From the NCBI GenBank assembly GCA_024278755.1, contig JAJRSO010000061.1, positions 1 through 64,000 of the forward strand: a stretch of 64,000 bases of DNA, written 5' to 3'. The position numbers and the translations under genes are program-made. Below are positions 7,536-53,912 of the stretch, piece by piece (the first letter of the stretch is position 1; each line of letters starts with the position of its first letter). The DNA is from Calditrichota bacterium. GTDB lineage: Bacteria; Calditrichota; Calditrichia; Calditrichales; Calditrichaceae. The notes under the pieces were generated by a model. It was not told where the DNA came from and made no database searches. It saw only the letters and a program-made list of their open reading frames with translations.

Positions 7536-8541
7536 ATTGTTGGTACTGCTTTTATCCTTTTCAGTTTTGGTTTTCATTAACTCCTGCAACATTAAGCCGG
7601 GTACACTTGGGGCCCAGTATCGTATTTTTGTCGTGGCCGATTCAGCATTTTGGCAAACGGTAGAACCGCAGGTGCGGGCAGTTTTCGAAAAAGAGCTGGT
7701 TACCCCGCATTCCGAAAAAAGTTATTTTATTACCATGATTCCCCTCGATCAACTAAACGCACTGAACGATCGTATGAATGTTTTTTTTATGGGGATTATA
7801 AATGGCGAAGGCGCTGTGGATCAGTATCTTACCAAATATATGCCACAAAATTTTAAACAGGGGGTACAGGAGGGAAAGTATTTTTATTCCTTTAATAAAG
7901 ATATGTTTGCCCGTGATCAGATTAGCCTTATTATGATGGCCGCGGATACCTCGTCCTTCCTTGCAAATCTTGAAGCAATGAAAAGTGAAATATATAATAA
8001 ATTTACGGAAAAATATTTGGCCCGGCTTAAAAAAACCATGTTCGAACGCGACGACAACCCGTCTGTGCAAAAATTTCTGAGGAAACATTTTGGCTGGAGT
8101 ATACAATTGCAGCAGGATTATTTTATTGCCAACGATGATGAAGAGACAAAATATGTCTGGCTGCGCCGTATCCATCCCAATCGCTGGATCTCTATCTGGG
8201 AGATGGAACGCACAACAGACAGCCTTAGCCTGGATACGTTAAAACAAATCCGCAACCGTATGGCTCGTAAATACTATCAGGGTGATATTGTTGTGGATGA
8301 AGATCTCTCTTTGGAAACGGTTCCTTTTAACGGCTATCCGGCACAGAAGATGACAGGGCTTTGGCAAAACGATTCTCTTGTCGTAGGCGGCCCGTTTCGG
8401 CTTTATGCGCTGAAGGATACGCTTAAAAACAAACGGTATTTCATTGATATTGCCGTTATGGCTCCCGGCGAACTAAAAAAACCGTATCTGGACCAACTGG
8501 AAGTTATGGCACATACGTTTCGTGCGGTTGAGCAGGAATAA
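7510..8541 (+). CDS. DUF4837 family lipoprotein
   Basis: A predicted lipoprotein of 343 residues. ATG 7510 is preferred because AAGGAG at 7498-7503 is 6 bases upstream; the ATG at 7504 touches the ribosome site. The signal peptide (KLLVLLLSFSVLVFINSC) ends in a lipobox-like INSC. The mature protein begins with a GAQYRIFVVADSAFW strand typical of DUF4837, followed by two related alpha/beta halves. Function is unknown; the family is common in Bacteroidota and relatives. It overlaps the preceding membrane protein by 26 bases, implying co-expression. Confidence 0.75.
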   Translation: MTYSKQVLKLLVLLLSFSVLVFINSCNIKPGTLGAQYRIFVVADSAFWQTVEPQVRAVFEKELVTPHSEKSYFITMIPLDQLNALNDRMNVFFMGIINGEGAVDQYLTKYMPQNFKQGVQEGKYFYSFNKDMFARDQISLIMMAADTSSFLANLEAMKSEIYNKFTEKYLARLKKTMFERDDNPSVQKFLRKHFGWSIQLQQDYFIANDDEETKYVWLRRIHPNRWISIWEMERTTDSLSLDTLKQIRNRMARKYYQGDIVVDEDLSLETVPFNGYPAQKMTGLWQNDSLVVGGPFRLYALKDTLKNKRYFIDIAVMAPGELKKPYLDQLEVMAHTFRAVEQE

Positions 8542-8772
8542 GAGTATTACCCAAAGTTCTGATGTGAAAATTAGGAAACGCCAAAACACAAATAAACACC
8601 AAATTCAAAAACTTAAACAGGCATCTACAAGATGATTTTTGTTATTTGCACTTTAGAATTTAAGGTATAATTTAAATACCGACTTGCTTTATATTTTTAA
8701 AAGTATTTAATTAAAGGCTCGGTTTATAGCTTCTGCTGAAAGCCGGGATAATAAACAATAAAAGGATTATAA

Positions 8773-9663
8773 ATGAGCAGAGTTCTCATTTTAGGCGCAA
8801 ATGGACTATTGGGCCAGGCAATGCAACATAAATTTAATCAGATGCATCGGGTGACGGTCTCTTCTTTTGAAGAGCGCAGTTTCCTCCCGGAGCTGTCTTT
8901 GCCGTATATCCAGGCCGATTTAACAAGCCGCATCGATGTTCGCAACTTAATTTCAAAAACCGATCCCGAAATTATTATAAATACAGCCGCTTATACCAAT
9001 GTGGACGGATGTGAAGAAGAACGGGAGAAATGCTGGGCGGTAAATGTTCTGGCAATGGAAAATGTTTTAGAAACACCCTACAACCCCCCCCCCATTATTG
9101 TCCAGATATCGACCGATTATGTGTTTGACGGGGAGCATGGCAATTATCGGGAAACAGATTCTCCCAATCCACGGGGGAATTATGCCCGAAGCAAAATGGC
9201 TGCCGAAAACATTTTGAATGCCGCCGGTTTTGAATACATTATTGCCCGTACGCAGATACTCTTTGGAAACGGACAAAATGTGCGTCCCAATTTTGTAACC
9301 TGGCTGATTAACCGTCTTCGGGAGAAAGAAGCGGTACAGGTTGTCGGCGATCAAACGGGTTGCCCCACCTATGCGCCGGATGTGGCCGATGCCGTGTACC
9401 GTTTATTGGAAAAAGAGGCCTATGGGTTGTTCCATATATCCGGGCCGGAGGCTCTGAGTCGGTATGATTTTGCCCTGCAGGTAGCGGACGTATTCGAACT
9501 GGATAGCGCTCTGATTAAAGAAATAACCACCGAGCAACTCCGGCAAAAATCTGCACGCCCCATGAATTCTTCGTTGATACTGGATAAACTTTATAACAAT
9601 ATTAACTGGCAGCCCCGTTCCGTTATAGACGCGCTGCGCCATATGAAATCGGAAATGGAATAG
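8773..9663 (+). CDS. rmlD: dTDP-4-dehydrorhamnose reductase (RmlD-like), copy 2, with C10 tract
   Basis: A 296-residue SDR enzyme with GANGLLG near residue 8, the RmlD signatures INTAAYTNVDGCE and ISTDYVFDG, the catalytic YARSK, and the substrate-loop GDQTGCPTYA. It is closer to canonical RmlD than the copy at 2130. A run of ten C at 9084-9093 encodes Pro-Pro-Pro just before the ISTDYVFDG strand, and a one-base slip would truncate the enzyme. It is followed without a gap by the GT2 gene. Upstream 8542-8772 is AT-rich and gene-free. Confidence 0.87.
   Translation: MSRVLILGANGLLGQAMQHKFNQMHRVTVSSFEERSFLPELSLPYIQADLTSRIDVRNLISKTDPEIIINTAAYTNVDGCEEEREKCWAVNVLAMENVLETPYNPPPIIVQISTDYVFDGEHGNYRETDSPNPRGNYARSKMAAENILNAAGFEYIIARTQILFGNGQNVRPNFVTWLINRLREKEAVQVVGDQTGCPTYAPDVADAVYRLLEKEAYGLFHISGPEALSRYDFALQVADVFELDSALIKEITTEQLRQKSARPMNSSLILDKLYNNINWQPRSVIDALRHMKSEME
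9084..9093 (+). repeat. C10 homopolymer inside rmlD copy 2
   Basis: Ten consecutive C cover the last base of an AAC codon and three CCC codons. The frame is intact at this length. Tracts like this are prone to slipped-strand mispairing, and in surface-polysaccharide genes they often act as phase-variation switches. Confidence 0.85.
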
Positions 9664-10386
9664 GTGATGGTTGATCCGGCTAAGGTGGTTATTGTTGTTC
9701 CCACCTATAATGAAATTGAGAATGTGGAACGGCTTGTGGAGGCTCTGTGCAGTTATCAACCGGGGATCAATATTCTGTTTGTGGACGACAGCTCACCCGA
9801 TGGAACAGCGGCGCGTATAAAGAAAATGCAGCAGGAAAGGGATAGTATCCATTTGTTGGAACGTCCCGTTAAAGAAGGACTGGGCCGCGCTTATATCGCC
9901 GGATTTAAAGTTGCGTTAGAAAAAGGATTTCAATACATTTTTGAAATGGACGCGGATTTTTCCCACGATCCGAAAGAAGTCCCCAATTTTTTAAAAGCGA
10001 TAGAAGAGAATGATTTGGTGTTGGGCAGCCGTTACATTAAAGGCGTAAATGTGGTTAACTGGCCGCTGCGCCGTTTGCTACTCAGTTATTTTGCCAATAT
10101 GTATACGCGCATTATAACGGGTTTGCCCATTCAGGATGCCACCGGAGGATTTAAATGTTTCCGGAGGGAGGTGCTGGAAAGTATTGATCTCGATAAAATT
10201 GAATCAAACGGATACGGTTTTCAGATAGAACTGAGTTTTAAAGCCTGGAAAAAAGGATACCGGATAAAAGAAATTCCGATTATTTTTGTTGACCGCCAGT
10301 TTGGTGAGTCGAAGCTATCTAAAAATATCATGTGGGAAGCGATCTTTTTAGTATGGAAGTTGCGTCTTTCCAGTTTAATTAACTAA
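9664..10386 (+). CDS. Polyprenol-monophosphomannose synthase-like GT2
   Basis: A 240-residue GT-A family 2 glycosyltransferase similar to the catalytic domain of dolichol-phosphate mannose synthase. Signatures are [13 protein letters not shown], the VDDSSPDGT nucleotide-binding loop, the [10 protein letters not shown] metal-binding motif and [14 protein letters not shown], ending in [10 protein letters not shown]. No C-terminal membrane helices are present, as in the Dpm1/Ppm1 short forms. It would charge polyprenyl phosphate with mannose or a similar sugar on the inner membrane. It starts at GTG 9664 directly after the rmlD stop (ATG 9667 is an alternative). A GDP-mannose-forming enzyme lies at 30440. 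Confidence 0.88.
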
Positions 10387-32653: not shown

Positions 32654-34840
32654 ATGAGAAGAATTTTTACTATGTTTATTGTTTTAATGCTTGCGTCGGC
32701 TACAGTATTGATGGCCAACGGGAGAAACGGCCGGGAGCTCCGCGTTCCTCAGCTGCAGAAAGTTATGTCAAAAAGAATGATTCAGCCTAAGGCTGAAAAG
32801 TTCTGGAATACAACGCCACCGGAAAATCCGGTTCCGCGCGGTCCGAGAGATTTTGTACCTACCATAGACAGAACCACAACCTTTAATTATTATCATATGC
32901 GCATAGATTCTTCCCGTAATGGTTATGGTTGGCTGGATGCTTCCATTCGCACCCTCGCCCGCTACAATGATGTGGACACCTGGGGTAGCGGCGTTGTGGA
33001 AGACTATATGGTAATGGCTTACCGTCAGTTCCTGGCAAGTGACGAAAACACCGGCGTCATTGGTAGCGCATTTATCAACCTGGAAAACGGACTGGAAAAC
33101 AGCACGCCTGTTATCTTCGAAAACCTGAATCAGGATTTAAACGGAAGCGCTTCCGGTGGTCGGTATCCTTCAATTGTAGTTACCGATTATCCGATTGTCA
33201 TCTGGAATCAATATTTAAATTCCGGTGGTACGCTGGCCGATCCGCCCGAATCACATATCTACGAATCACCTAACTACGATGGTTATAATAACCCGGGTTA
33301 CTATGATGTACCCATTCAGTTTGATGACGGTTATACCGATCCCAACAACGGGAGCGTAGCGCCGACAACAAACCGCCTCTGGCAGCAATCTACTGTAGCT
33401 GCACAGCCGAATGTCAGCACCGAAAACTACTATCTGATTTCCATGATGGATACGTGGATGTCTGATGTGGAAAAATCTGTTTACGGTGAAGATCATACTA
33501 AAAATTTACTGTATGCAAACACCGACGATCCGTATGACTGGACTACAAAAGTCTGGCACCCGTGGGATCCGCAGGATGTCAACTGGACCATGTTAAACAA
33601 TGCCGTTGATATGAATAAAAACGGTTTAGCCGCAGTTGTGGGCGCCGGCGAATTAGAATATCATTCTTCCGATTCCGGCTGGTACTATGAAGAGATGAAG
33701 ATAACCTATATGACGTCCACCGATTTCGGTAATACGTGGAGTAATGTGGATACGGTACATTTTGCCGATTTCTTCCCACTTTATGTATATGCGGCAGATT
33801 CGCTGATTCTGTATTGGGAGATATTACCGACCGGCGATACGGTGCTTACTTCTTATGAAGGTCCTACCTTCTCCGGTATGGAAAGTGATATTGATGTCGT
33901 AGTCGGTGAAAATGATACTATTTATGTTGGCTTTCAGAAATTATGGGGACGTCCCAGTGAAGACGGAAGCGGCTGGTACCCGAATGGTAATTATACCGGA
34001 TTTTATGTAGCAATGACCGGTGACCGCGGCAATACCTGGAGTATGTCGCCCATTGCGGCCAATGTTGGTTTTTATCAGGGTGATGACGATCCGCCTAACT
34101 CGGAAATGACCATGACTTTCTTTGGCCCTGAGATTGATCTGGGTATTGATGATGCCGGTAATTTATACGCCGGATGGTTGGATCGCCCGCGTTTAAATCC
34201 GCAACAGGCGGTGGCCGGACGTTATGTGTCTATAAATGACGGCGGAAGTAAAGACTATGTTACTGATGTTTATGTTTCACGCAGTACCAACAACGGCGGA
34301 AGCTGGAGCTGGCCGCTGAATGCAACCGAAACGCCAAGCATTGATGAATATGAATTTAAAATGGCTAAACAGGTTTCGTCGGCAAATAATGGAACCGTAT
34401 ACTTCGGTTATAATATTGCCGCAACGGATCGTCTGCTTGCTTCCGGTGAAAACTCCGGAACAATGCCGGACCTAAACAGAGACGCATATGTGGATATGGT
34501 TAATTACATCTGGGTTGGCTACGGAAATGATTTACGCGATGTTTCCGACGTCGACGGTAAAATAGTGCACACGGCAAACTCTTTTGCTCTGGAGCAGAAC
34601 TATCCGAATCCGTTTAACCCGGAAACGCTGATTGAGTTTACCGCCGCAAAATCAACCCACGCGCTGGTTGATGTATTTAGTTTAACCGGTGAAAAAGTGG
34701 CGACTGTTTTTGACGGGCAGGCACGAAGCGGTATCAATAAAGTACGTTTTAACGGCTCTAACTTAGCGGCGGGCGTTTATTTTTATCGTCTGACAATGGC
34801 TGGAAAATCAGCTGTACGTAAAATGGTTCTTGTAAAGTAG
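32654..34840 (+). CDS. Secreted Asp-box (sialidase-like propeller) protein with T9SS sorting domain
   Basis: A 728-residue exported protein: signal MRRIFTMFIVLMLASATVLMA, then a beta-propeller-like body with three Asp-box motifs, STDFGNTWSN (~residue 355), TGDRGNTWSM (~455) and STNNGGSWSW (~543). The catalytic Arg triad of sialidases is not evident, so an enzyme activity is not claimed. The C-terminal ~85 residues are a type A sorting domain: EQNYPNPFNPETLIEF, then GVYFYRLTMAGKSAVRKMVLVK. It is expected to be displayed on or released from the surface. A strong AAGGAGG site precedes the ATG; a terminator-like hairpin follows. Confidence 0.78.
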   Translation: MRRIFTMFIVLMLASATVLMANGRNGRELRVPQLQKVMSKRMIQPKAEKFWNTTPPENPVPRGPRDFVPTIDRTTTFNYYHMRIDSSRNGYGWLDASIRTLARYNDVDTWGSGVVEDYMVMAYRQFLASDENTGVIGSAFINLENGLENSTPVIFENLNQDLNGSASGGRYPSIVVTDYPIVIWNQYLNSGGTLADPPESHIYESPNYDGYNNPGYYDVPIQFDDGYTDPNNGSVAPTTNRLWQQSTVAAQPNVSTENYYLISMMDTWMSDVEKSVYGEDHTKNLLYANTDDPYDWTTKVWHPWDPQDVNWTMLNNAVDMNKNGLAAVVGAGELEYHSSDSGWYYEEMKITYMTSTDFGNTWSNVDTVHFADFFPLYVYAADSLILYWEILPTGDTVLTSYEGPTFSGMESDIDVVVGENDTIYVGFQKLWGRPSEDGSGWYPNGNYTGFYVAMTGDRGNTWSMSPIAANVGFYQGDDDPPNSEMTMTFFGPEIDLGIDDAGNLYAGWLDRPRLNPQQAVAGRYVSINDGGSKDYVTDVYVSRSTNNGGSWSWPLNATETPSIDEYEFKMAKQVSSANNGTVYFGYNIAATDRLLASGENSGTMPDLNRDAYVDMVNYIWVGYGNDLRDVSDVDGKIVHTANSFALEQNYPNPFNPETLIEFTAAKSTHALVDVFSLTGEKVATVFDGQARSGINKVRFNGSNLAAGVYFYRLTMAGKSAVRKMVLVK

Positions 34841-35041: not shown

Positions 35042-37774
35042 ATGAAACGATTTATCTATGCATTAATAATCCAACTCTGTCTTTTATCCGTTGCCTTTTC
35101 AGGAACGACAGGCAAATTAGCCGGCAGAGTTATTGATGCGGTTACTAAAGAACCCATTGCCGGCGCAAATATTATACTGTAAGGAACCATGAGAGGAGCC
35201 TCAACGGATGTGGACGGGGAATATTACATTATTAATATTCCGGCCGGGCGGTATACCGTTACCGTGTCCTATGTAGGCTATCAGGGAATTAAACACCCGA
35301 ATGTGAATATACTTATCGATCAGACCACCAAACTTAATTTTCAGTTATCTGAAGATATCTCCGAGGCAGAAACGATTGTTGTTACGGCAGAGAGCTTTAA
35401 AGTCCAGAAAGACGAAGTAACAAAGAAGATTACAATTCAGAGTGAAGATATTCAGGCCATGCCGGTTCAGGATTTTTCGGAACTTGTTACTGCGCAGGCG
35501 GGTATTATTCAGATTGAAAGTAGTGTGCGCGGTATCAGCGGATTCGAGGACCGTGGAATTGAAGAAATTCATGTGCGCGGGGGGCGTTCCGGTGAAATCG
35601 GATATACGATTGACGGAATGTATATAACCAATCCCTTTTACGGACATAAATATTCGTGGACCCAGCTAAACGATTTTGCTCTGGAACAGGTCGATATAAA
35701 AACCGGCGTCTTTGATGCCGAATACGGCGGCGCCATTTCAAGCATGATTAATATGATTACCCGTGACGGTGGAGATAAACTTGAGGGAAACCTCCGTATT
35801 AGAACTTCCAATCCGGGACGATTGTTTAACCCGGCTACTTTTTTCAGTAAAGATAAAAGCGCGCCGTTTGATATCGGTTTAAGGCAAGATTATTTGCGCG
35901 ATAACCGTTTGATTTCCGGTGGTTTTGGCGGTCCGGTTCCGTTTACCAACAATAAATTAAAGTTTATTGTTACCGGCCATAAACAGCGTTCTTCCTACGG
36001 AGTATGGGAATTTGATAATAAAACTTTTAATACGGCCGATCCCTATAATTTGGATAATGAATTTGTAAATCAGCTTGATACCATTGCCGGCTGGCGGGCC
36101 ATGGGTTTTCGTACCGGCTGGGATCTCTATTCAAAATTAAGCTGGCGTATTAATAACTCTATGAAGCTGGATTTTTCCGCTTGGAACCTGGAAACCGTAT
36201 TCCGGACGATGAACCTTGCCAATTTCGGCTATTTGTATTACGAAGAAGGCCGCAATATAGATACGCAGACATCTGACAGGCAAGCGTTGATGTTTAACCA
36301 CCAAATTTCCAAAAGTGTTTTCTATGATTTGCGCTTCTCCCGGTTTTATCAAAAAATGTTTATCGGTGTGACGGATAATGGAAAAGAAGATGGACGGTAT
36401 TTAGATCCGGATGAATATGTGGCTCCGGAAACGGATATCGACCATTTTGACACGAATCCTTTTTGGTATGAGTTTATTGTATCCGGACATGATCGCTATT
36501 ATCATCAAAACTATGCCGAAACATACGAAGGCTTTGCCAATATTCTGGCACAGGCAACCAAACATCATCAGCTTAAAATGGGCGCCTCTTACCGCCGGCA
36601 TACCATTATGATCGATGAAATTCAGCTCCCCTGGCTTTTAACCCCCTATAAAGAAAAATATAAAAAACATCCCGAAGAGGCGGCAGCTTATATTCAGGAT
36701 CTGATTGAATACGATTATATGACGATTCATCTTGGATTGCGGTTGGATATGTTTAATTCCAATCATGAATATTGGGACGATCCCTATGCGGTTGATAAAA
36801 AGTTAGTTAAATCGCAATGGAAATATCATCTGAGCCCGCGTCTGGGTTTTTCGCATGTTATTACGGATAATGCAACCTTTACATTTGGGTACGGAAAATT
36901 TACACAGCTACCCACCTATCGTAACCAGTATATCAATGCGGAACGTGATATTAAAACCTACTCGCCGATTGTCGGAAATTCCGGCTTAAGCATGGAAGAT
37001 ATGACCGCGTACGAATTTGGCGTGAACATGGGCGTTGATGATCATACTATCGTTCAGGTAATAGGCTGGTCAAAAGAATACTCTAACTTAACCTCAACGG
37101 AACGGATACCACAATTTCCGTATTCCTATACAACCTTCTTAAATACCGATTACGCAACGGCCCGCGGCATGGATATTGTTGTCCGTCGGCAGGTGCCGGG
37201 AAAATATTCGGCTATTTTGCAGTATACGTATTCACGCGCAACTGCTAACCGTCCCGATCCCTGGGAAGGATATCGTTCTACTCAAACAACGCGTACGATG
37301 CCAAAACGTGAAATCCTGATGGGCTATGATCGGTCTCATGACATTAGTTTAATACTTTCTTATCAGATAAATAAGAGTGAAGGGCCTGCTCTGTTTGGAT
37401 TCCATCCGTTTGAACGCACACGGCTTAACATAATGTCGATGGCGCTTAGCGGCTGGCCTTATACCCCTGTGCTGGGTACGGTTGCGGGAGAGACAAATTC
37501 CGAGCGGGGGCCTTGGAATTTTACGACCAATTTTAACTTACGCCGCTATTTTAATGTATACGGCGTAGATATGATTTTTGGAGTTATGGTTCAAAATGTG
37601 TTTGACCGTAAAAACGAAATTGATATATGGCCTTCCACAGGAACCGCTTCGGATCCCGGGCTCCGTTTAAACCGTTTGGTTGAAATGGGTATCTACTCCA
37701 AAACAATGTTTGATCGGCCCTTTATGTATGGCCGCAGAAGACAAATTGATTTTTCATTGGAAATTGCGTTTTAA
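35042..37774 (+). pseudogene. TonB-dependent receptor of module A, interrupted by in-frame TAA at codon 47
   Basis: Full length would be 910 residues. From ATG 35042: signal peptide (MKRFIYALIIQLCLLSVAFS), then a carboxypeptidase-regulatory-like domain (GKLAGRVIDAVTKEPIAGANIIL), a TAA at 35180-35182, and then the same frame continues (GTMRGASTDVDGEYYIINIPAG) through the plug (EEIHVRGGRSGEIGYTIDGMY) and a 22-strand-type barrel ending in LEIAF. The intact paralogue at 45864 has Gln47 (CAA) at the matching position. An ATG at 35189 could restart translation using AAGGA within the stop context, but the product would lack a signal peptide. No other frame disruption is visible. It is either a recent pseudogene or read through; the substrate is unknown. 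Confidence 0.8.
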
Positions 37775-37789
37775 AGAAAGGTACGTATA

Positions 37790-40700
37790 GTGACACGTTT
37801 TATAAAAATACTTGCCATATTGCTGTTTGGTACATGGATGCTTCTTTTTGCCGAACATCCGATAAAAAAACAGAGCGGAACAGCGCTTTTAAAAGCACCG
37901 GATGATCCGCTTATCAGCAGAGCCAGGGCCTACCTGGATAAAGGAAAACTTAAGATTGCCGTTCAGAACTACGGCCGTTTTGTAGATTGGGATGTATTCC
38001 CGGCTGCCGCCTGGGGTAATTTTACCTATATCCCGGATGTCTCGCTAATGGTGGGCATTCCCGGAAAGGATAAAAACGGAAATCCCTACCCCTGGGCTGT
38101 TGGAAAAAAAGAGATGTATATCATACAGGATAATGATTTTAAAACGTTTGGTTCCGATACCACCTATTGGGGGCCAACCGTTTCGGAATCGTGGATGGAT
38201 CGTACACCGAATTCCAATCGTGTGGACTGGGAATCGAAAGCGGAATCCCAGATTTACCTGCACAATCCTCTGATTACGGCAGGTAAATACTTTGGAGAAC
38301 AGGGCTTATATACTTATCCCGAAGATCAATATCCGCTGATTGCCACCAGTGATATTCCCGAGACATGGCCTGTCCGAGTAAATGCGCTGGGCGAAGAAGA
38401 ACCGTTCTGGCCAGGGCCGTTTGCATCGGATCCGTCAGATACGTCGGATACGCCGAAAGAACTTAAAGGTGTTTTTGTATCCGATCAGGATATCTATTTT
38501 GAATTTGACGATCGCTTTGCCACCCGCGATATTGATACGACCCAGGGCTATCCCATCGGCATTCGCGCTACCGTTTCCGCTTATTCATATAGCGCCAGTA
38601 TTTCCGAAGATATTGTCTTTTTTAAGATGTATCTGCATAACGATTCGCAGTGGGATTACGAAGGCGTCTATGGCGGTTTCTATTTTGATGGTGACTCCTA
38701 TAATACCGATTTAAACGGTATTCGCTGGCGTCAGACCAACGAAGATGATATGATGGGTTATAATACCGATCAGGATTTTGGATATATTTACGATCTGCTG
38801 GGCGGCTCGGAATATCCCGAAACAAACGGAGAACCATTAGCCTATGCGGCTGTTAAATTACTGGAAACACCTAAAGCAACCGAACCGGTTGATTTGGATG
38901 ATGATGGTTTTGATGATATTCAGATTGGCGATCCCCTGGGTTTAACCGGCTGGCACTGGTTTAGCTGGTATGTGCGTCCGGGCGCTAAAGACGGCGGCGT
39001 AAATGGGCCTTTCTCCGGCGATGGACAAACGCCCTACCAGGCAAATAAAGAAGAAATTCAATATAAAATAATGGCCGGCGATACAATGGGCATTACCGCC
39101 AGCGATCAGGAAAACTATTTCCATCCCCGGAAATATAAAGTTGGCGAAGCCATTGTCTCCGGTGAAACAAATCCGCGTTTTGATTCCATCGAGGGGTTGT
39201 TGCTTGATTATCCGCAGGGTTTGGATTGTGTATTTATTATGTCCTCCGGGCCTTTTAGCATAGCCTCCGGTGATTCTGTCCCTTTCTCGTTCGCCGTTAT
39301 TATGGGGCAAGATACGGCCGATTTGCGTATCAATGCGGATGTGGCTCAACTTATGTATGACAATAATTACCAGGGCGCCCGCGCTCCGGTGGCTCCGGTT
39401 GTTACGGCCAAAGAGAGTGATCGCGAAATAACCTTATATTGGAATTCAGAATCTACCGAGGATGAAGACATTATTACCGGTTATCAGGATTTTGAAGGTT
39501 ATCGTATCTATAAGAGCACCGATAACGGAAAAACCTGGGGTAAAAGACAATTTGATCCGCAGTCCGGCACGGAATATTGGGAGCCGATAGCACAATACGA
39601 CCTGGATAATGAGATAAGTGGGTATGAACCGCTTCCGCCCAGACGTTATCTTGGCTCTAATACAGGTTTGTCTTTTAAATTTACGGGTACCGATGTGGAA
39701 AACGGCGTTTAATATCTTTACGCGGTCTGTGCTTACGACCGTGGTTTTATCCCTGGAAATCCGCTCTATGATCCGGATGATAAAGCGACTGAGTTAGGAC
39801 TGACCTTCGAAATTCCATCACTCGAAAACCTGCTTTCTAACAGCTCATATCTGGACCATATTGTAAAAGTAATCCCGCATCGGGGCGCCAGTAATACGGT
39901 TTTAGAAAACTTAAAAGTCGAAAAACTACCGGGAACTATCGGAACCGGCGTCTTTAATGTAGAAGTTGTTTCTCCGCCGCTGGTTACGGGCGATACCTAT
40001 GAGATCCATTTCGATTCCGAATACATGGATGTAGATAGCACACAGCTTGTTCCCGGTTCTCAGACATATTCCATTATCAATACCGTTTCCGGAGATACGC
40101 TGGTTAAAGACAGCAAACAGTATTCAACGGATGAAAAACAGGTAGCGCCTCCTATTTATGACGGTATCAGTTGGATGATTAAAACCAGCCGGGATATTTC
40201 CGTTAATTTGGATGATGTATACTGGAAAGAGGGTTCCGTTGGTACCTATCGCTTTAGCTCATTGAAATTTAATTCAAATACAGTAAAGACACGCAGCGAT
40301 TACGAAATTCGATTTTTTAACGAACCGGTTGATTCTGTTTTTAGAAGAAATCCTGGCGGCAGGCTATTGCACTTGGTTCCATTTCAGGTATGGAATACGA
40401 TAACCCATCACAAGGGTACGCTTGTTTCATTGCGCGGGGACGAATGGAATCAGCAATATACCTATCAGGTATACGAAGATACACTTCCGGATATCGCCGG
40501 CAACGAAATTAAGACTCTTGTGTTTAAATGGGAATGGATTGAACCGGGAACCGTGGATCCGAATACCGGGGAAACGCTACCCGCGGATACTCGCCCGCAA
40601 GAGGGAGATGTTATGGTTATTCCGGTACGTAAACCGTTTGAGCATGGCGATGTTTTTCGTGTTCAGTCCGATGATGTGTTTAAAGTGGAAGCCGTAAAAG

Positions 40701-41002
40701 ATACAACACTTGATAATGTTAAGGTGGTTCCCAATCCCTATATTGTACATGCTTCCTGGGAGAAGGATGACTTTGTCAGGAAATTACAGTTTACAAATTT
40801 ACCGGATAAGTGCTGGATTCACATTTTTACCGTTGTTGGTGAGCGTGTGATAAAAATCCGTCACGAAAGTTCCAGTGATGGTAGTGAGGACTGGAATTTA
40901 CTTACATCCAACCGGCAGGATGCTGCCCCCGGATTGTACGTTTATGTGGTGGAAGCCGATAATGGTAAAAAGATTACCGGCAAATTTGTACTTATCAAAT
41001 AG
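37790..41002 (+). pseudogene. Large T9SS-CTD protein of module A, interrupted by in-frame TAA at codon 641
   Basis: GTG start at 37790 with AAAGG about 8 bases upstream, and a signal peptide (FIKILAILLFGTWMLLFA). The coding frame runs 640 codons, meets TAA at 39710-39712, and continues in the same frame to 41002 (1070 codons in all). The frame after the stop reads YLYAVCAYDRGFIPGNP, which aligns with TYYFAVTAYNYNSDPNVP of the intact paralogue at 48865, both following an Asn-Gly. It has a fibronectin-III-like part (APVVTAKESDREITLYWNS) and a C-terminal sorting-type domain (VVPNPYIVHASW...GKFVLIK). Truncation would remove the sorting domain. Function unknown. Confidence 0.8.
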
Positions 41003-41010
41003 GAGTGGAC

Positions 41011-42030
41011 ATGAAATTTAAATTGACATTGACTGCATTTCTCGTTTTGAATGTTTCGTTGTTTGCTCAGGGCGAGTTATCAAAAGTCGCAACGGGTACG
41101 GCCCAGTTTCTTAAAATTGGGATTGGCTCCCGTGGCATAGCGCTTGGTGATGCTTACACGGCATTGGCGGACGGCGTACATTCCATGTATTGGAATCCGG
41201 CCGGCATTCAAAAAATAGGACATACGGCAGTTGCCGTTTCTCAGTTGGATTTATATGCGGTAATTAAGCATAGTTTTATCGGAGCGGTTGCGCCGATTGA
41301 TGAAAACACGACCATTGGGGCTTCGTTGCTGTATCTTTCGTCCGGTGATATTGAACGAACGACAATTGCAGAACCGGAAGGGACCGGGTCGTATTTTTCT
41401 ACCTCGCACATGGCCTGGGGATTAACCGTCTCACGCAGAGTTACGGAACGTTTTAGTTTAGGTGTTACCATAAAATATATATCCGAACGGTTAGATATGG
41501 CGGAAGCTTCTACCGCTGCTTTTGATATCGGTTCTCAGTTTGACACCGGTATTTATGGCCTGAAGATAGGAATGGTTCTGGCAAATTTTGGCGGTAAAAT
41601 GAAATTTGACGGAGCAAATTTAAACTACGAACAGGATAACGAACTAACCGGAATTTCTTACCCGACCGGCGCCCGTTTAAGAACGGAGGAATGGCCGATT
41701 CCGCTTTTGTTCCGCCTGGGGATAGCATTGGATGTTATGGGAAAAGACTCGGAAATATTTAGCAGTGAAAGAAACAGAATTACACTGACTATGGAGGGGA
41801 ATGACCCGGTAGACAATGTGCTGCATTACAATTTTGGCGCCGAATACGAATGGAATAGTATCTTTGCGATTCGTGCGGGGTACAAAGAAAATTACGACGA
41901 AGCAGGATTTACCGCAGGCGTAGGGTTGGATTTTACCAAAATAGGCATTGGCGCCCGTTTGGATTATGCCTATAACGATGTTGGTTTATTAGGCAAGATA
42001 CATAATTACAGCCTTGAGTTTTCTTTTTAA
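41011..42030 (+). CDS. PorV/PorQ-like outer-membrane barrel of module A
   Basis: A 339-residue protein starting at ATG 41011 (AGGAG 5 bases upstream, overlapping the previous stop TAG). Signal peptide KLTLTAFLVLNVSLFAQ, then the family opening TAQFLKIGIGSRGIALGDAYTALADGVHSMYWNPAGI. The rest is an amphipathic-strand barrel ending in LEFSF. In T9SS systems such barrels bind or shuttle cargo; this one is probably the partner of the large CTD protein next to it. Paralogues are at 12156, 52875 and 62121. Confidence 0.8.
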   Translation: MKFKLTLTAFLVLNVSLFAQGELSKVATGTAQFLKIGIGSRGIALGDAYTALADGVHSMYWNPAGIQKIGHTAVAVSQLDLYAVIKHSFIGAVAPIDENTTIGASLLYLSSGDIERTTIAEPEGTGSYFSTSHMAWGLTVSRRVTERFSLGVTIKYISERLDMAEASTAAFDIGSQFDTGIYGLKIGMVLANFGGKMKFDGANLNYEQDNELTGISYPTGARLRTEEWPIPLLFRLGIALDVMGKDSEIFSSERNRITLTMEGNDPVDNVLHYNFGAEYEWNSIFAIRAGYKENYDEAGFTAGVGLDFTKIGIGARLDYAYNDVGLLGKIHNYSLEFSF

Positions 42031-45863: not shown

Positions 45864-48827
45864 ATGTTCAAAAAAGTGCTTTTATTACTTTTGACCTTAG
45901 CTATGCCGATTTTTCTTTTTGCTCAGTCGACGGGTAAAATAATGGGTGTAGTTAAAGACAAAGATACCGGCGAGCCATTGCCTGGTGTTAATGTTATAAT
46001 TCAAGATACTTACTTTGGTGCTACTACAGACATCGATGGGTATTATGTAATCCTCAATGTTCCTGTAGGTGCTTTTAGTGTTGAAGCCAGTTATGTTGGT
46101 TACACGAAAGCCATCTATAAGAATATCCGCGTTTCTGCGGGGCAAACCACAGAACAAAATTTCGAGTTACAATCAACCACTTTGGAACTGGGTGAGGCTG
46201 TTGTAGTTACCGCAGAGCGGCCGCTTGTTGAAAAACATGTTACCCAGAGTGTTGCCAAGGTAAACTCCGAACAATTAGATGAGCTTCCGGTTCGCGGTAT
46301 TACTGCCGTTCTGGCGTTGCAGCCCAGTGTTGTTGTTCAGGATGGCGCGCTGCATATCCGTGGCGGTCGTTCTGATGAAGTTGGTTATTATCTGGATGGC
46401 GCATCAACGGTGGATCCTGTTTCGAATACAAATGCAGTTTACGTTATTCATGATGCTGTAGAAGAAATTCAGGTTCTGGCCGGCGGATATACGGCCGAAT
46501 TCGGTGGCGCTAATTCTGGTATCGTCCGTTCGGAATTACGTTCCGGTACCCGTGACTATCGTCTTTCTCTTGATTTTCAGACTGACAAATTTGTTGGTAT
46601 TGGTGAAGAATTTCTTGGTACACAATCCTGGAATGATCATATTTTAATCGGAACGTTTAGCGGCCCCTTAGGCACAGACAAAATAAGACTTTTTGCCGCA
46701 GTTGAAAACAATTTTGAAGGTGATTTTCAAAAACGTTTCACAAAAAGTTTCCGTTTCAACGAAAGTAATTTACAAAATCCGCTGATTGATGATCAGCGCG
46801 GTAGTAAAACATTTGGCGATACAATTCCTGAATTGTATTATCCAAACTATACACCGGATAATCAGCGTAACCGCTGGACGGTTAACAGTACTTTGCTGTT
46901 TGATTATAATCCAATTCAGGTTCGCATAAGCGCTTTGTATAACCAGCGTACATATACAAATGACGGGCTTCCTGTGTTGCATATCCTGAATGACAGAAAT
47001 CAATACACAGACGCTCGTAACTTACTGCTTAGCGCAAAACTGACGCATATTCTAAATCCGACTTCTTTTTATAATTTAAAAGTAAGTTATTTTGATGATT
47101 ATGCCGAACGTAAAGATGATTATTTTGGCAGTGACTGGCGTTCCTGGTCGGATAGTGCCAAAGTATACGAACATACTAATGGCGATGTCGTTTTTCGCGA
47201 TGCGGCGCACGGAAATTATTCCTACCTGCTTAATGGATTTTCCTTTAGCCAGGATGGTACATTAAAGAGCGGCTGGTATAATAAAAACTCACAGAACTAT
47301 ATTTCCGGTTCTATGAACTATGTAAGCCAGATTAATCGTCATAATGAAATTAAAGCCGGCTTTGACGCCCGCTATTATACGGTGCGCAATTTCTCTATTT
47401 ATACACCGACGGCTTTAGACAGAACACAGTTTTATGGTAGTGAAGAAGCTGTGCCTGTTGCTGCCTGGGCCGAAGCGCTTGGTTCACGGAACTATGGCTA
47501 TGACCGTTTTGGCAATGAGACCGATAAGGGTCAGGATGCCGCGCGTACGCCGTTATTTGCTTCCTTTTATATTCAGGATAAAATCGAATTTGACAACCTG
47601 ATTATCAATGCCGGTCTGCGGTACGATTATTTTGATACCGATGATAAAACACTCATCCATCCCGATGATCCGGCAGTAAACGAAGCAGAAGCCTTGATTA
47701 AAGATGAGGCCTGGAGAGATCTGGATCCGTTCCAGTATATTAGCCCTCGTTTGGGAATGTCTTTCCCCATTAGTGAAAAAACGGTATTCTATACTCAGTA
47801 TGGCCGTTTTGTTCAAACACCGAAACTAAGCCATATCTACCGTAGTTATAACGAACTTGGTACTCAGATTGTAACCGCAGGTAACTACTATACTGCGCCG
47901 ATTGCATACGGTTTAGAGCCGATTGAGACCACTTCCTATGAAATTGGTTTCCGTCAGCAAGTGGGCGAAGTGGCCTCGTTTGATATTACAGGTTTCTATA
48001 AAAACCTGAAAGGTCAGATTGGTTCGGACAGGGTTACAGCAGCGCCTAACTCATCAATCCAGACCTATGACCGTTTGGCAAATGGCGATTTTGCGACTAC
48101 AAAAGGTCTTGAGTTTAAGATGATTATGCGTCGGTTTAACCGCCTTCAGGCACAGTTAAATTATACGTACACCATCGCCGAAGGAACCGGCTCCGGTGAA
48201 AATTCATACCATGCCGCTTCTTATCGTAATACGGCAAAACCCACGATTACATCTCCGCTTGATTATAACCAGAAACACCGTGGTTCTATAAATCTGGATT
48301 ATCGTTTTGGTGAAAATGACGGTGGCCCGATTTTCTCAGGATTTGGCGCTAACTTGTTATACACATTCTCAAGTGGGCATCCGTTTACCTTGGTGGATTT
48401 CTCTTTAGGTCAGGTAAATGGGTATGATGCCGGCGTTAATTATATGAGTGATACGCGTTCCCGTGAAGCTTTGGAGCCTATTAACAGCTCGTCAACTCCA
48501 TGGACTTCTAATATTGATCTCCGTCTCGATAAATCCTTTAAGGTGTTAGATAATCTTAAAGCCCAGGTATATGTGCGCGTTACCAATCTGTTAAATACGA
48601 AAAACATCATCAACGTATTTCAGGCCACAGGCAGCGCTCAGGATGATGGTTTTATCAATGATCCTACCAAAGCTGAGAGTTTTATCAATACCTATGGCGG
48701 CCAGGATTATATAGATATGTATAAGGCTATTAATCTTGAAAATGGCCAGGCATATTGGAGTGCAACCGGAATGCAGTTATACGGTAATCCACGTCAGGTT
48801 ATGGTTGGCATGAAGTTAATTTACTAA
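45864..48827 (+). CDS. TonB-dependent receptor of module B (intact)
   Basis: A 987-residue outer-membrane receptor. Signal peptide FKKVLLLLLTLAMPIFLFAQ, a carboxypeptidase-regulatory-like domain (residues ~22-105: GKIMGVVKDKDTGEPLPGVNVIIQ, with Gln47 encoded CAA), a plug domain (HIRGGRSDEVGYYLDGAS; TAEFGGANSGIV) and a long beta-barrel ending in MVGMKLIY. The domain order is that of SusC/OmpA-type receptors, but no SusD is adjacent; instead a giant CTD protein and a PorV-like barrel follow. TGGAGG precedes the ATG. Likely energised by TonB; substrate unknown. Confidence 0.88.
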   Translation: MFKKVLLLLLTLAMPIFLFAQSTGKIMGVVKDKDTGEPLPGVNVIIQDTYFGATTDIDGYYVILNVPVGAFSVEASYVGYTKAIYKNIRVSAGQTTEQNFELQSTTLELGEAVVVTAERPLVEKHVTQSVAKVNSEQLDELPVRGITAVLALQPSVVVQDGALHIRGGRSDEVGYYLDGASTVDPVSNTNAVYVIHDAVEEIQVLAGGYTAEFGGANSGIVRSELRSGTRDYRLSLDFQTDKFVGIGEEFLGTQSWNDHILIGTFSGPLGTDKIRLFAAVENNFEGDFQKRFTKSFRFNESNLQNPLIDDQRGSKTFGDTIPELYYPNYTPDNQRNRWTVNSTLLFDYNPIQVRISALYNQRTYTNDGLPVLHILNDRNQYTDARNLLLSAKLTHILNPTSFYNLKVSYFDDYAERKDDYFGSDWRSWSDSAKVYEHTNGDVVFRDAAHGNYSYLLNGFSFSQDGTLKSGWYNKNSQNYISGSMNYVSQINRHNEIKAGFDARYYTVRNFSIYTPTALDRTQFYGSEEAVPVAAWAEALGSRNYGYDRFGNETDKGQDAARTPLFASFYIQDKIEFDNLIINAGLRYDYFDTDDKTLIHPDDPAVNEAEALIKDEAWRDLDPFQYISPRLGMSFPISEKTVFYTQYGRFVQTPKLSHIYRSYNELGTQIVTAGNYYTAPIAYGLEPIETTSYEIGFRQQVGEVASFDITGFYKNLKGQIGSDRVTAAPNSSIQTYDRLANGDFATTKGLEFKMIMRRFNRLQAQLNYTYTIAEGTGSGENSYHAASYRNTAKPTITSPLDYNQKHRGSINLDYRFGENDGGPIFSGFGANLLYTFSSGHPFTLVDFSLGQVNGYDAGVNYMSDTRSREALEPINSSSTPWTSNIDLRLDKSFKVLDNLKAQVYVRVTNLLNTKNIINVFQATGSAQDDGFINDPTKAESFINTYGGQDYIDMYKAINLENGQAYWSATGMQLYGNPRQVMVGMKLIY

Positions 48828-48864
48828 TTAAATGTTCATGTGATAGATTTTTAGGAGTATATAT

Positions 48865-51800
48865 ATGGTAACCAAAAATAAAAAAATCCCCTTCCTCTTA
48901 ATGATAGGGATTTTAATATTGGCGTTTGCGTCCGGCCTTATGGCAAGACAAAATCCTGCTGCTGTATCAGATCAGGCTTTTGCAAAAGCGGCCGCAGATA
49001 AATATTCAAGAACATTATTCAATATTTCGAACTGGGCATATTGGTTGTATTATGACGGTATGTCTGCACAAACTCCTAACGGAGATTCCGGCGGTATCTA
49101 TCCGCGGGGAACAACCGGCGTCATTTTTACAGACGGTATCGTTTGGGGTGGTTATGTACAGGATGGAGACGCTTCAAAACCCTCCCTTCGTGTTGGCGGC
49201 CAGACCTATAATATCGGTACAACGCCGGGTTGGATTGAAACAGCAGGCGACGGTGTAAATCCTCCTGTTGCTATTTCTGCGGATGACCCGAGAGCGCGTA
49301 TCTATAGAATCCGCCAGGATTACACCTCTTTGGTTTCCCTTGATAAAGATGGTAATAAGGTATATTCGGCAGCGCTTAAACAAGATGCCGCCGATGTAAA
49401 CTTTAAAAGCAGTGAAGCCGTAACTCCGGAAGATATGGACGCTGTTATGGCCCAGTATGAAACCGACTGGAAAGAATGGCCGGTTGATTTAGGCGCTCCT
49501 TACTATGATGAAAATGGTAACGGCGTTTATGATCCGGTTCTGGTTGACGGTATTCCTCAAATTGGTGTTTGGGATGCAACGACCAGTTCGTATAGCGAAT
49601 ATTACGATCGTCCGGGAACTGCCGGCGCCGATCAGGTTATTTGGTTTGTCGTAAATGACTTAACGGAAGCCAGAACACTTAAACTGTATGGTTCCCCTCC
49701 TATGGGTATGGAATTACAGGTTACGGTTTGGGGATACAACCAGCCGAATTCCACTTTGGGACAAATGCTGTTTAAAAAATTCAAGTTCATCAATAAATCA
49801 GGATATGACATTGATTCTATGTTTGTAGCACAATGGTCTGACCCCGATTTAGGAAATTATGCAGATGACCTTGCCGGTTGTGATATTGACCTGAGTTTAG
49901 GTTTTGCCTATAACGGTTTCCGTACCGATTCTCAGTTTGACCCGTTTGGTTTACCACCCGCAGCCGTTGGATATGACTTTTTCCAGGGCCCAATGGTGGA
50001 CGGCGTTGCCGGCCAGGATTTAAACCACAATGGCGTGGATGATGCTGATGATTATGCTGTATTCGGTTTGGAAAGACAAGGCCCGGGTAAGATCAATCTT
50101 CCCATGACCAGTTTCTTGTATTTTGCCGCCGGTAGCCCTATTTCCGATCCGGATTTAGGAGAATATGAATCTACCAAAGAGTGGTACAATATGCTCAACG
50201 GTTTTACGCCGACTCCGGACTTAGATAATCCGACTCCGTATACCGTTCAAAATGTTAAAAACGGAACGCCTACGTTATATCCCTTGTCCGGTGATCCTTT
50301 CCTCGGAACGGGAGATGTGGACGGACAGAGCACAAATCTGCCTCCTGGTGATCGCCGTATCGGTTTGGCGTCTGGTCCATTTAATATGGCGCCCGGTGAC
50401 GAACAGGAACTGGTTGTTGCCGTTGTAGGCGGTATTATTAATCAAACTGGCGGCGACAACAGAAATGCTGTTGCTCAGTTAAAACTGAACGATGCTTATG
50501 CGCAGTTCTTATACGATAAACTGTTTGCCGGTGTACCGAGTCCTCCTAAGGCGCCTCAGGTAACCGCTAACGAATTTGACGGAAATGTAACTTTCGACTG
50601 GGGTTCTGATGCGGCCGCAGTTGCCGAAACAGAACGCGACGATCCTGTTTTAGGGTTTAATTTCCAGGGTTACAATGTGTATCAGTTACCGTCGGAAACA
50701 GCAAGTAAAGACCAGGCCAAATTAGTGGCAACTTATGACATTGTGGACCGCGTTGGTATTATCCGCGCGAAACAATTTTTGCCTTCCTTTGGCGATGTTG
50801 TGACGGTTCCGGTTCAATATGGTACCGATTCCGGCATTAAGAGATATCTGAATATTGATCATGATTATATCAATGATCTGCCTCTTTATAACGGACAAAC
50901 CTATTACTTTGCAGTAACGGCTTATAACTATAATTCGGACCCGAATGTACCCGAGCAGTCGCTGGAATCGGCCTTAACGCCGATTGCCGTAATTCCTCAG
51001 CCGAAAACGCCCGGTTATTCCGATGGTTCTGCCACAGATGAGCAGATTGCAAATGCACATTCGGCAGGCGTTTCGGAACAAGCCACACTGAAGATTAATG
51101 TGGTTGACCCGGCAAAAATTACCGGCGATGATTACAAATTGTTTTATGAATACTGGCACTATTATATGGATGTTGACGGAAAATGGAAACGCACTGCCTA
51201 TCCGGATTCTGTTGCACCCGTTGCAAAAGCCGGTGATGTTTCGCCGAGTTCGTTTAGTGCCATTGCCTATACGAGTCCTACTCCGGGAACAAGGGACTTA
51301 AAATTTATCCTTGATTTAGTTTCCCCGGATTATGATTATTCGGACGGTGTTTCATTTACTTTTCCGCCCGAAGTGACCATTAACAGCGCCGAAACCGTTG
51401 TCGGTAACGGGGACGGTAATCCGCATGATGCGATTATTGACGAAGCGACCAATACGGTTACCTGGGGTTCGCCCGATACAACCGGTTTTGGCCCCTTCTC
51501 CGGTGGCGAAGTATTTACCATTAATGTGAATACGCCGACCCTTCCCTTAGACGTTGATTATATTATCTTTGACGATGGCTGGGGATTTTACTTCCTCGCT
51601 AACTATGGCCTGCCTCCCGGCGTTGTAATATTCGGTACGGGTACGGTAACCATTTCCGAAGAAGCTTATGCTTTTAAAACGGTTCCCACATGGAATCTGG
51701 AAGATGTAACCACCGGTGAAATAAAACTGGCCGGTCAGGAACATATGTATACTTCCGCTGACGCCATGAGCGCACCGATTGTGGATGGTTTCCAGATTAT

Positions 51801-52833
51801 CGTAGGCGGTAGCTATGATGCGCCTATGGATTTTTCAAGCGCAATAGTTACTCGTCTTGACGGCACAACAGAAGAAGTTGGTGATTTTGGTCATGCTGGT
51901 TCCGGCATTGGCAGCTATGGCTTTTATGGCTGGGCCGCCTCTGCACGTTCCATCGATGCAGAAGGCCATGGTACAACCGATCTGAATACACTGATTAAGG
52001 ACTATGAAATTCGCTGGACAGGTGAATTTGATACCACCGATGTTGGTGGCGTCACTATCATTACGGTGAAAGACGGCACGGGATCAATGGCGTATTTAAG
52101 CGGCGCCCGCGGTTACAGCTTAGCGGATCATCCGTTTAATCCCAATCCGGGAACGGACGCTCCGTTTATGGTGCGTGTTCCGTTTGAGGTATGGAATGTA
52201 GATGATAATGTTCAGATAAATATTAATATCTACGATCGTAAAGGTGACCCGACGACAGGTGAATTCCAGGCATGGAATCCGCATGACAGGATGTACACCA
52301 ACTTCATCAATACGCCTTATAGTGATGATTTAGCTACGGTTTCCGGCGCGCTGGATGAGCAGACCTGGAACCTGGTATGGTGGGATTCTGAATTAGCAAA
52401 GGGAGAGAAAGTTTATATTAAATACGCCAATCCGATTATTATCGGATCGGATGAATTTTCATTCTCAACCGCTGGTTTAGGTGAATCCTTCAGCGAAGAC
52501 AGAGTGGCTGAAGATGTTGGTAATGTGGGTGTATTCCCGAATCCGTATTATGCATACAACCCGGCAGAACCCAATCGTTTCACCAGGTATGTTACGTTTA
52601 ATCACTTAACACCTACAGCAACCATAAGAATCTTTGATTTAGCGGGAGCACTGGTGCGTAAATTAGATAAAGACGACCCGAGTCAGTTCCTGCGCTGGGA
52701 TTTACGCAACGAATCTGATATCCCTGTCGCAAGCGGCATTTATATTGCGCATATCGACATGCCCGAAGCGGGTAAGACCAAAATACTTAAGGTCTTCATC
52801 GTTCAGGCACAAGAAATGCTTAAGTTTTATTAA
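48865..52833 (+). CDS. Giant secreted T9SS-CTD protein of module B
   Basis: A 1322-residue protein with a signal peptide (IPFLLMIGILILAFASGLMA). The N-terminal part (NWAYWLYYDGMSAQTPNGDSGG; a large DEN-rich region with LNHNGVDDADDYAVFG) is not recognisable as an enzyme. A fibronectin-III-like region near residues 555-720 (APQVTANEFDGNVTFDWGS ... NGQTYYFAVTAYNYN) is shared with the interrupted paralogue at 37790. The C-terminal ~100 residues (VFPNPYYAYNPAEPNRFTRYVTF ... SGIYIAHIDMPEAG ... KVFIVQ) resemble a sorting domain, with an atypical tail AQEMLKFY. Probably surface-attached and the cargo partner of the PorV-like protein. TTAGGAG before the ATG. Confidence 0.75.
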   Translation: MVTKNKKIPFLLMIGILILAFASGLMARQNPAAVSDQAFAKAAADKYSRTLFNISNWAYWLYYDGMSAQTPNGDSGGIYPRGTTGVIFTDGIVWGGYVQDGDASKPSLRVGGQTYNIGTTPGWIETAGDGVNPPVAISADDPRARIYRIRQDYTSLVSLDKDGNKVYSAALKQDAADVNFKSSEAVTPEDMDAVMAQYETDWKEWPVDLGAPYYDENGNGVYDPVLVDGIPQIGVWDATTSSYSEYYDRPGTAGADQVIWFVVNDLTEARTLKLYGSPPMGMELQVTVWGYNQPNSTLGQMLFKKFKFINKSGYDIDSMFVAQWSDPDLGNYADDLAGCDIDLSLGFAYNGFRTDSQFDPFGLPPAAVGYDFFQGPMVDGVAGQDLNHNGVDDADDYAVFGLERQGPGKINLPMTSFLYFAAGSPISDPDLGEYESTKEWYNMLNGFTPTPDLDNPTPYTVQNVKNGTPTLYPLSGDPFLGTGDVDGQSTNLPPGDRRIGLASGPFNMAPGDEQELVVAVVGGIINQTGGDNRNAVAQLKLNDAYAQFLYDKLFAGVPSPPKAPQVTANEFDGNVTFDWGSDAAAVAETERDDPVLGFNFQGYNVYQLPSETASKDQAKLVATYDIVDRVGIIRAKQFLPSFGDVVTVPVQYGTDSGIKRYLNIDHDYINDLPLYNGQTYYFAVTAYNYNSDPNVPEQSLESALTPIAVIPQPKTPGYSDGSATDEQIANAHSAGVSEQATLKINVVDPAKITGDDYKLFYEYWHYYMDVDGKWKRTAYPDSVAPVAKAGDVSPSSFSAIAYTSPTPGTRDLKFILDLVSPDYDYSDGVSFTFPPEVTINSAETVVGNGDGNPHDAIIDEATNTVTWGSPDTTGFGPFSGGEVFTINVNTPTLPLDVDYIIFDDGWGFYFLANYGLPPGVVIFGTGTVTISEEAYAFKTVPTWNLEDVTTGEIKLAGQEHMYTSADAMSAPIVDGFQIIVGGSYDAPMDFSSAIVTRLDGTTEEVGDFGHAGSGIGSYGFYGWAASARSIDAEGHGTTDLNTLIKDYEIRWTGEFDTTDVGGVTIITVKDGTGSMAYLSGARGYSLADHPFNPNPGTDAPFMVRVPFEVWNVDDNVQININIYDRKGDPTTGEFQAWNPHDRMYTNFINTPYSDDLATVSGALDEQTWNLVWWDSELAKGEKVYIKYANPIIIGSDEFSFSTAGLGESFSEDRVAEDVGNVGVFPNPYYAYNPAEPNRFTRYVTFNHLTPTATIRIFDLAGALVRKLDKDDPSQFLRWDLRNESDIPVASGIYIAHIDMPEAGKTKILKVFIVQAQEMLKFY

Positions 52834-52874
52834 TGGCCAATTGTGAATCAAGTATAAGTAAAGGGAGACCTATA

Positions 52875-53912
52875 ATGATAAAGAAAAAAACACTTAGCGG
52901 ATTTGTACTCTTCGCTATAATATTAATGATGACGTACACTGCGGGCATCGCCGGTGATACAGACCGGATTGGTACTGCAGCGGGTGTTCAGGTTCTGGTT
53001 CCAACCGGGGCCAGAGATATATCCACCGCAGGTTCGAATATGGCTTTTACCAGCGGTATCCATGCCATTCATTGGAATCCGGCTGGATTATCCAGAATGC
53101 AGAATTCAGCCGCAGGACAGTTCTCTACGATGACTATTTTTAATGACATCAAGGTTAATTATCTTGCAGTAGGCGCTAAAATGGGCGGTCTCGGTGATTT
53201 TGCGTTTAGCATTAAAGCATTTGATTTTGGTGATATACCTATTACAACGCGGGAAGATATGGACGGCCTTAGCGGCTCTACTTTCTCTCCCACATTTGTA
53301 ACAACAACCTTAACCTATGCTAACAGCCTGACCAACGCGATTCGTGTGGGAGTGAATGCAAAGTTTGTCTATGAAAGTATTCCTTCTGCATCGGCAAGCG
53401 CTGTTGCTTTTGATATCGGCCTTCAATACGATGGTTTGGCCGGCATTGAAGCGCTGTCTTTTGGCGTGGCAGTGAAAAACATCGGTAGCGGTTTAAATTA
53501 TACCGGTTCCGGTTTAACCAGCGAAGTTCTTGATGCCTCCGGACGTTCGGATTTTCTGAGCCGTGAAGCTTCAACGAATGACCTGCCGGCTTCTTTTGAC
53601 ATCGGTGTTGGTTATAAACTGGCAATTGATGAAAAAAGCAACATGCTTCTGTCTTCGGCATTTGTCAATAATAACTTTGGCTATGACGAGCTCAGGTTAG
53701 GTGCGGAATATAGTTTTAATAACTTTATATTCCTGCGCGGTGGTTACAATTATGGTGTTGAGCAACCAGCAGACGATCAGCTGTATACTTTTTCTCTGGG
53801 TGCAGGCATTAACTACAATCTCGGTGGCGTCAATCTGGCTATCGATTATGCGTACCGCGACTCACAGTTTTTTGATGCAAACAACATGTTTGGATTAACA
53901 CTTGGTTTCTAA
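52875..53912 (+). CDS. PorV/PorQ-like outer-membrane barrel of module B
   Basis: A 345-residue protein. ATG 52875 is chosen (GGGAG 7 bases upstream and an immediate signal peptide, TLSGFVLFAIILMMTYTAGIAG) over the longer frame from 52833 that overlaps the previous stop. Family opening: QVLVPTGARDISTAGSNMAFTSGIHAIHWNPAGL, then the barrel, ending FGLTLGF. It parallels the module A barrel at 41011 in order, spacing and length, so the pair [large CTD protein + barrel] is probably a functional unit. Terminator follows. Confidence 0.82.
   Translation: MIKKKTLSGFVLFAIILMMTYTAGIAGDTDRIGTAAGVQVLVPTGARDISTAGSNMAFTSGIHAIHWNPAGLSRMQNSAAGQFSTMTIFNDIKVNYLAVGAKMGGLGDFAFSIKAFDFGDIPITTREDMDGLSGSTFSPTFVTTTLTYANSLTNAIRVGVNAKFVYESIPSASASAVAFDIGLQYDGLAGIEALSFGVAVKNIGSGLNYTGSGLTSEVLDASGRSDFLSREASTNDLPASFDIGVGYKLAIDEKSNMLLSSAFVNNNFGYDELRLGAEYSFNNFIFLRGGYNYGVEQPADDQLYTFSLGAGINYNLGGVNLAIDYAYRDSQFFDANNMFGLTLGF

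Follow-up and report, generated by a model that had tools for sequence, protein, structure and literature searches.

Can a cell of this Calditrichota lineage make the outer-membrane receptor encoded at 35042-37774 of the window (the whole stretch of 64,000 nucleotides that was analysed), when the reading frame of the gene carries a TAA near its 5' end? The gene could have died recently, the codon could be translated, translation could start behind it, or the codon could be present in the assembled sequence and not in the cell. The features at issue are the following.

35042..37774, + strand: gene of 910 codons for a TonB-dependent receptor, broken by a stop at codon 47; the read-through product has CarboxypepD-like and Plug domains (Pfam and orthologues)
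35180..35182, + strand: in-frame TAA, codon 47; GAA (Glu) in the same-genus orthologue (sequence and alignment)
35189..35191, + strand: ATG six bases 3' of the stop, a possible restart, with AAGGA upstream (sequence)

The position of the TAA as the 47th codon from the ATG at 35042, described in an earlier, sequence-only reading of this DNA, can be read directly in the letters. The same description of a signal peptide and part of a CarboxypepD-like domain before the stop, and of a further 863 open codons after it, is borne out; the frame ends at the TAA at 37772-37774. When the stop is read through, the protein matches PF13715, PF13620 and PF07715 above the Pfam cut-offs, and the hallmarks of TonB-dependent receptors are all present: a signal peptide (recognized by eye in the aligned orthologues), a CarboxypepD_reg-like domain and a Plug domain. 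The interrupted frame is more than a product of chance, because its homology to nine orthologues, none of them interrupted, extends across the stop. Rfam gave no match in the window, and thus a regulatory RNA around the stop was not seen. Receptors of the SusC-like superfamily that have a CarboxypepD_reg-like domain share with this protein the signal peptide, the CarboxypepD-like domain and the Plug, and likewise have neighbors of the PorV kind and of the kind with a type IX sorting tail. The difference is the interruption at codon 47, which occurs in this assembly only.

The direction of the base change follows from the orthologues. The same receptor is found uninterrupted, at 66-95% identity, in nine genomes of the family; five of the 15 family genomes, some of them incomplete, have no ortholog this close. 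The sister protein, from the same genus (genome G001, the Calditrichaceae metagenome bin record JANTFQ010000027.1), is 95% identical and has GAA (Glu) as codon 47, and the change is therefore G>T. In the alignment of the other orthologues the position is occupied by Lys, Glu, Asp or Val, and by Gln in none. The sequence-only reading was right that one base change suffices, as GAA differs from TAA in a single letter. Its C-to-T change from a CAA codon for Gln47, however, had been derived from the paralogue at 45864, which is about 25% identical over its length (as compared with the receptor of the sister), and is ruled out by the lack of Gln in any orthologue.

The orthologues also bear on the possibility that ATG 35189 is the true start and that the part upstream of it is non-coding. 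Such a start is suggested by the closeness of this ATG to the stop and by the AAGGA just ahead of it. Against it, every orthologue whose 5' end is complete starts at the site corresponding to ATG 35042 and has a signal peptide, and the Met at 35189 lacks conservation beyond the genus. Orthologues beginning at 35189, which the sequence-only reading had named as evidence that would overturn an interruption, were not found among those complete at the 5' end. A product made from 35189 would have no signal peptide and an incomplete CarboxypepD-like domain. The start at 35189 was rejected on the orthologue starts and is the least probable of the readings considered here. The first 46 codons of the receptor (35042-35179) show an unusually low synonymous divergence from the sister, 0.27 compared with a receptor mean of 0.68; the starts of the genes at 32654 and 41005 are low in this respect too (0.30 and 0.38).

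The genes flanking the receptor keep their order across the family, and a second stop lies in the next gene:

32654..34840, + strand: intact and conserved upstream neighbor; its product carries a type IX secretion sorting tail (PF18962, synteny)
37790..41002, + strand: downstream gene, a single gene of 1062-1085 amino acids in relatives with a complete copy (alignment to relatives)
39710..39712, + strand: second in-frame TAA; GAA (Glu) in the sister and most other relatives (alignment)
41005..42030, + strand: PorV-like outer-membrane protein gene, conserved neighbor, intact (PF19572, synteny)

The downstream gene, the product of which has no Pfam match, is split here into an open reading frame for its front part (37790-39712, 640 amino acids) and one for its C-terminal part (40025-41002). 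Two paralogous modules, 35042-42030 and 45864-53912, adjoin each other, each with a receptor, a long protein and a PorV-like protein in the same order.

The receptor itself does not have the signs of a pseudogene, that is, relaxed selection or further lesions. Its dN/dS relative to the sister is 0.019 over the gene and at most 0.005 just after the stop, where the CarboxypepD domain continues and the plug follows. The amino acid changes that can be assigned to a lineage number nine here, with the stop included, compared with 14 in the sister, which amounts to no acceleration. The other orthologues agree with one another at 401 columns, and this receptor and that of the sister each depart from a single one of these. 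A very recent loss would leave dN/dS unchanged, and dN/dS is therefore blind to it. The statement of the sequence-only reading that there is no other decay thus holds for the receptor but passes over the in-frame TAA in the adjacent gene.

In-frame stops were then looked for elsewhere in the genome, which is a 3.94-Mb draft of 79 contigs, 95.8% complete and probably metagenome-assembled. The scan covered 1.69 Mb, or 43% of the genome, and selected stops flanked on either side by a coding signal in the frame of the stop, and then those with homologues aligning across it. The homology screen was run with coding-frame filters; its unfiltered version was swamped by antisense matches. Sixteen homology-supported stops with an identifiable lost residue were found, 13 at Glu and three at Ser positions, a proportion that may favor Glu sites because the lost residue was recognized partly through the conservation of Glu:

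35180-35182 and 39710-39712, Glu: the receptor and the next gene
L231:626 (contig C25 at about 70626), + strand, Glu: CysS, Glu in three relatives
Glu: GlnRS, mixed column
Glu: RsmE
Glu: saccharopine-dehydrogenase-type enzyme, GAA in the sister
Glu: MglA
L137:14648, L138:9648 and L140:2831, Glu: non-ribosomal peptide synthetase genes, the column at L140:2831 mixed
L225:3524, Glu
L196:1453, Glu: chemotaxis receptor
L130:8987, Glu: DUF2202 protein, a relative of PDB 3q4n
L205:7417, Ser: Xaa-Pro-aminopeptidase-type enzyme, TCG in the sister
L115:17249, Ser: M1-type peptidase
L116:15087, Ser: protein with a T9SS tail, mixed column

The gene names that have no Pfam, NCBIfam or PDB match behind them come from reading the sequence. 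About nine further candidates were left without an assigned residue; FlgE (L197:226) was not assignable by PDB alignment. The stops do not cluster significantly; clustering would have hinted at local decay or at thin coverage. In a comparison genome that is presumably Caldithrix abyssi (G006, a single 4.98-Mb contig), 0.82 Mb searched for homology in the same way had no protein-coding in-frame stop except one selenocysteine TGA, the other matches being dispersed repeats and similar non-coding matches. The receptor stop is thus not the isolated event, or the codon tolerated in this one gene, that it had been taken for; it belongs to a set spread over the genome. In another draft genome of the family (G012:C366; L037, match 7718-10345, - strand), a different receptor has a TAA in its CarboxypepD-like domain (VRL*DVKV).

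All 16 assigned stops fit a single substitution class, G:C>T:A, with the lost codons mostly deduced from relatives, most of them distant, and with three of the 16 residue columns mixed (GlnRS, L140:2831 and L116:15087). The change from GAA or GAG to TAA or TAG is a G>T on the sense strand, and that from TCG to TAG is a C>A, the same change on the opposite strand. Were all single-base routes to a stop equally probable, this class would account for about 30% of them, and finding it in 16 of 16 cases would have P about 4e-9. The mutated G is on the plus strand of the contig in nine and on the minus strand in eight of 17 cases, one unsure case included. The implied rate, about 2.8e-4 per stop-capable site, is a lower bound because detection is incomplete. 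It corresponds to at most about one G>T error per receptor-sized gene, in agreement with the absence of other changes in the receptor. Gly, Tyr and Cys codons are spared among the assigned stops, an outcome that a plain G:C>T:A process would give with P about 0.003, and one therefore has to assume that G is preferred where A follows it. Apart from this dinucleotide and a slight surplus of C at the preceding base, the sites have no longer motif in common. The sense-codon changes at invariant columns of five genes offer too few sites to show a G:C>T:A excess.

One member of the set bears on its interpretation. The TAA at L231:626 interrupts cysS, of which the genome has no other full-length copy, and cysS is essential: cells are not expected to survive without cysteinyl-tRNA synthetase. 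The loss of mutY or mutM produces G:C>T:A mutators, and no such loss was seen here: mutY and fpg (mutM) are both intact and above the cut-off. The stop in single-copy cysS and the intact repair genes speak for an error in the consensus. The TAA at codon 47 is therefore probably a wrong base in the consensus of the draft genome, a G reported as T, and one of a genome-wide set of such errors. The sequence-only reading had fairly allowed for an assembly error as an alternative.

The copying of 8-oxoguanine as T during library preparation is a usual source of a G:C>T:A signature, and its usual proof is the orientation of the reads. In the case of the receptor, the G that begins the Glu codon GAA would have been oxidized and copied as T while the library was prepared, and the error would have been kept where coverage was thin. 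All the affected genes, including the receptor, its downstream neighbor and cysS, would then be intact in living cells. We infer all three elements of this scheme, namely that the changes are in the data rather than in the cells, that coverage was thin and that oxidation was the cause. An oxidative error is expected to strike essential genes as readily as others, and the TAA in cysS agrees with this. G>T artefacts are known to arise when oxidized guanine is read as T (PMC12390751), and the same paper discusses the 8-oxoguanine G>T / C>A sequencing artefact, for which it cites Costello et al. 2013. The stops described here resemble that artefact in their single class, G:C>T:A, in their presence on both strands and in having no relation to gene function. 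They differ in that they are seen in the assembly consensus alone, into which the artefact would have passed, and in that the sites favor G then A.

Alternatively, the receptor could have been lost through a real and very recent nonsense mutation, GAA to TAA at codon 47. The product would then be a fragment of 46 amino acids, or an unexported protein restarting at 35189; the stop in the next gene would have accumulated as the cluster no longer mattered, and a G:C>T:A bias in the population would explain the signature. This is an ordinary way for genes to die, and stops in two adjacent genes fit the loss of a whole module. The receptor may also be dispensable, as the family genomes without a close ortholog suggest. 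Pseudogenes with a single recent nonsense mutation likewise have one in-frame stop in an otherwise undecayed gene; unlike them, the stops found here share one class over many genes, single-copy cysS and other conserved genes included, which a living lineage should not tolerate. Furthermore, mutY and mutM are intact, and decaying genes should also have acquired stops by C>T and G>A in Gln, Arg and Trp codons, none of which was assigned with confidence. A real loss of the receptor is thus unlikely, yet it is the most serious competitor of an error in the consensus.

It is also conceivable that the full receptor is made because UAA (and UAG) is leaky or is decoded as sense, mainly as Glu. The Glu positions of 13 of the 16 stops, the lack of decay in the affected genes and the presence of an essential gene among them would all fit. 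UAA as Glu was suggested by the first stops found and was dropped on several grounds: TAA is the terminator of 27 of the 37 genes of the window, RF1 and RF2 are intact, the 46 tRNAs of the 95.8% complete genome include no UUA or CUA anticodon, and TAG at Ser positions in enzymes fits poorly with a Glu meaning and well with C>A. These observations do not support UAA as a Glu codon, and a sense or leaky reading of this kind is very improbable. In peritrich ciliates (NCBI table 30) stop codons are read as Glu. The stops described here share the Glu positions with that code and differ in that TAA is the main terminator, TAG is found at Ser, both release factors are intact and the tRNAs found include no cognate one. 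Even less probable is a combination in which the stops are real, arising from a natural G:C>T:A process that favors G then A, and leaky termination at UAA and UAG yields CysS and the receptor. Were the stops true, it would be surprising for a cell to survive when its single cysS carries a TAA.

With a consensus error as the preferred explanation, the receptor is an ordinary one. The case is of low biological interest and of moderate interest as a caution on such assemblies. In-frame stops in conserved genes of this draft are not to be taken for pseudogenes or recoding, and calling of open reading frames splits real genes at such stops, as happens at 37790-41002, which becomes two. A tally of in-frame stops by substitution class, made by comparison with relatives, is a cheap way to check other assemblies for such errors.

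A peroxiredoxin has a TGA at the cysteine position (FV*ATE; L131:11760, - strand), and the genome has a tRNA-Sec gene (L070:911-1002); this protein is likely to be a selenoprotein, also present in C. abyssi (L184:2898, - strand). tRNA-Trp was not seen among the 46 tRNAs. A Gln-Arg-Glu tRNA cluster is present in two copies, L076 (contig C2) and L077 (C50:140900-141800), one of which is on a 4.4-kb contig. One frame of a dispersed repeat, which seems to lie between genes, reads like NSTNLHESIQCNFNKNNPCLSVEIGGYAFLDWTH; C. abyssi has a similar repeat. Copies of the NSTNLHESIQCNFNKNNPCLSVEIGGYAFLDWTH type are at L205:9401, L192:4397, L227:15192, L116:9463, L147:4950 and L123:19694.
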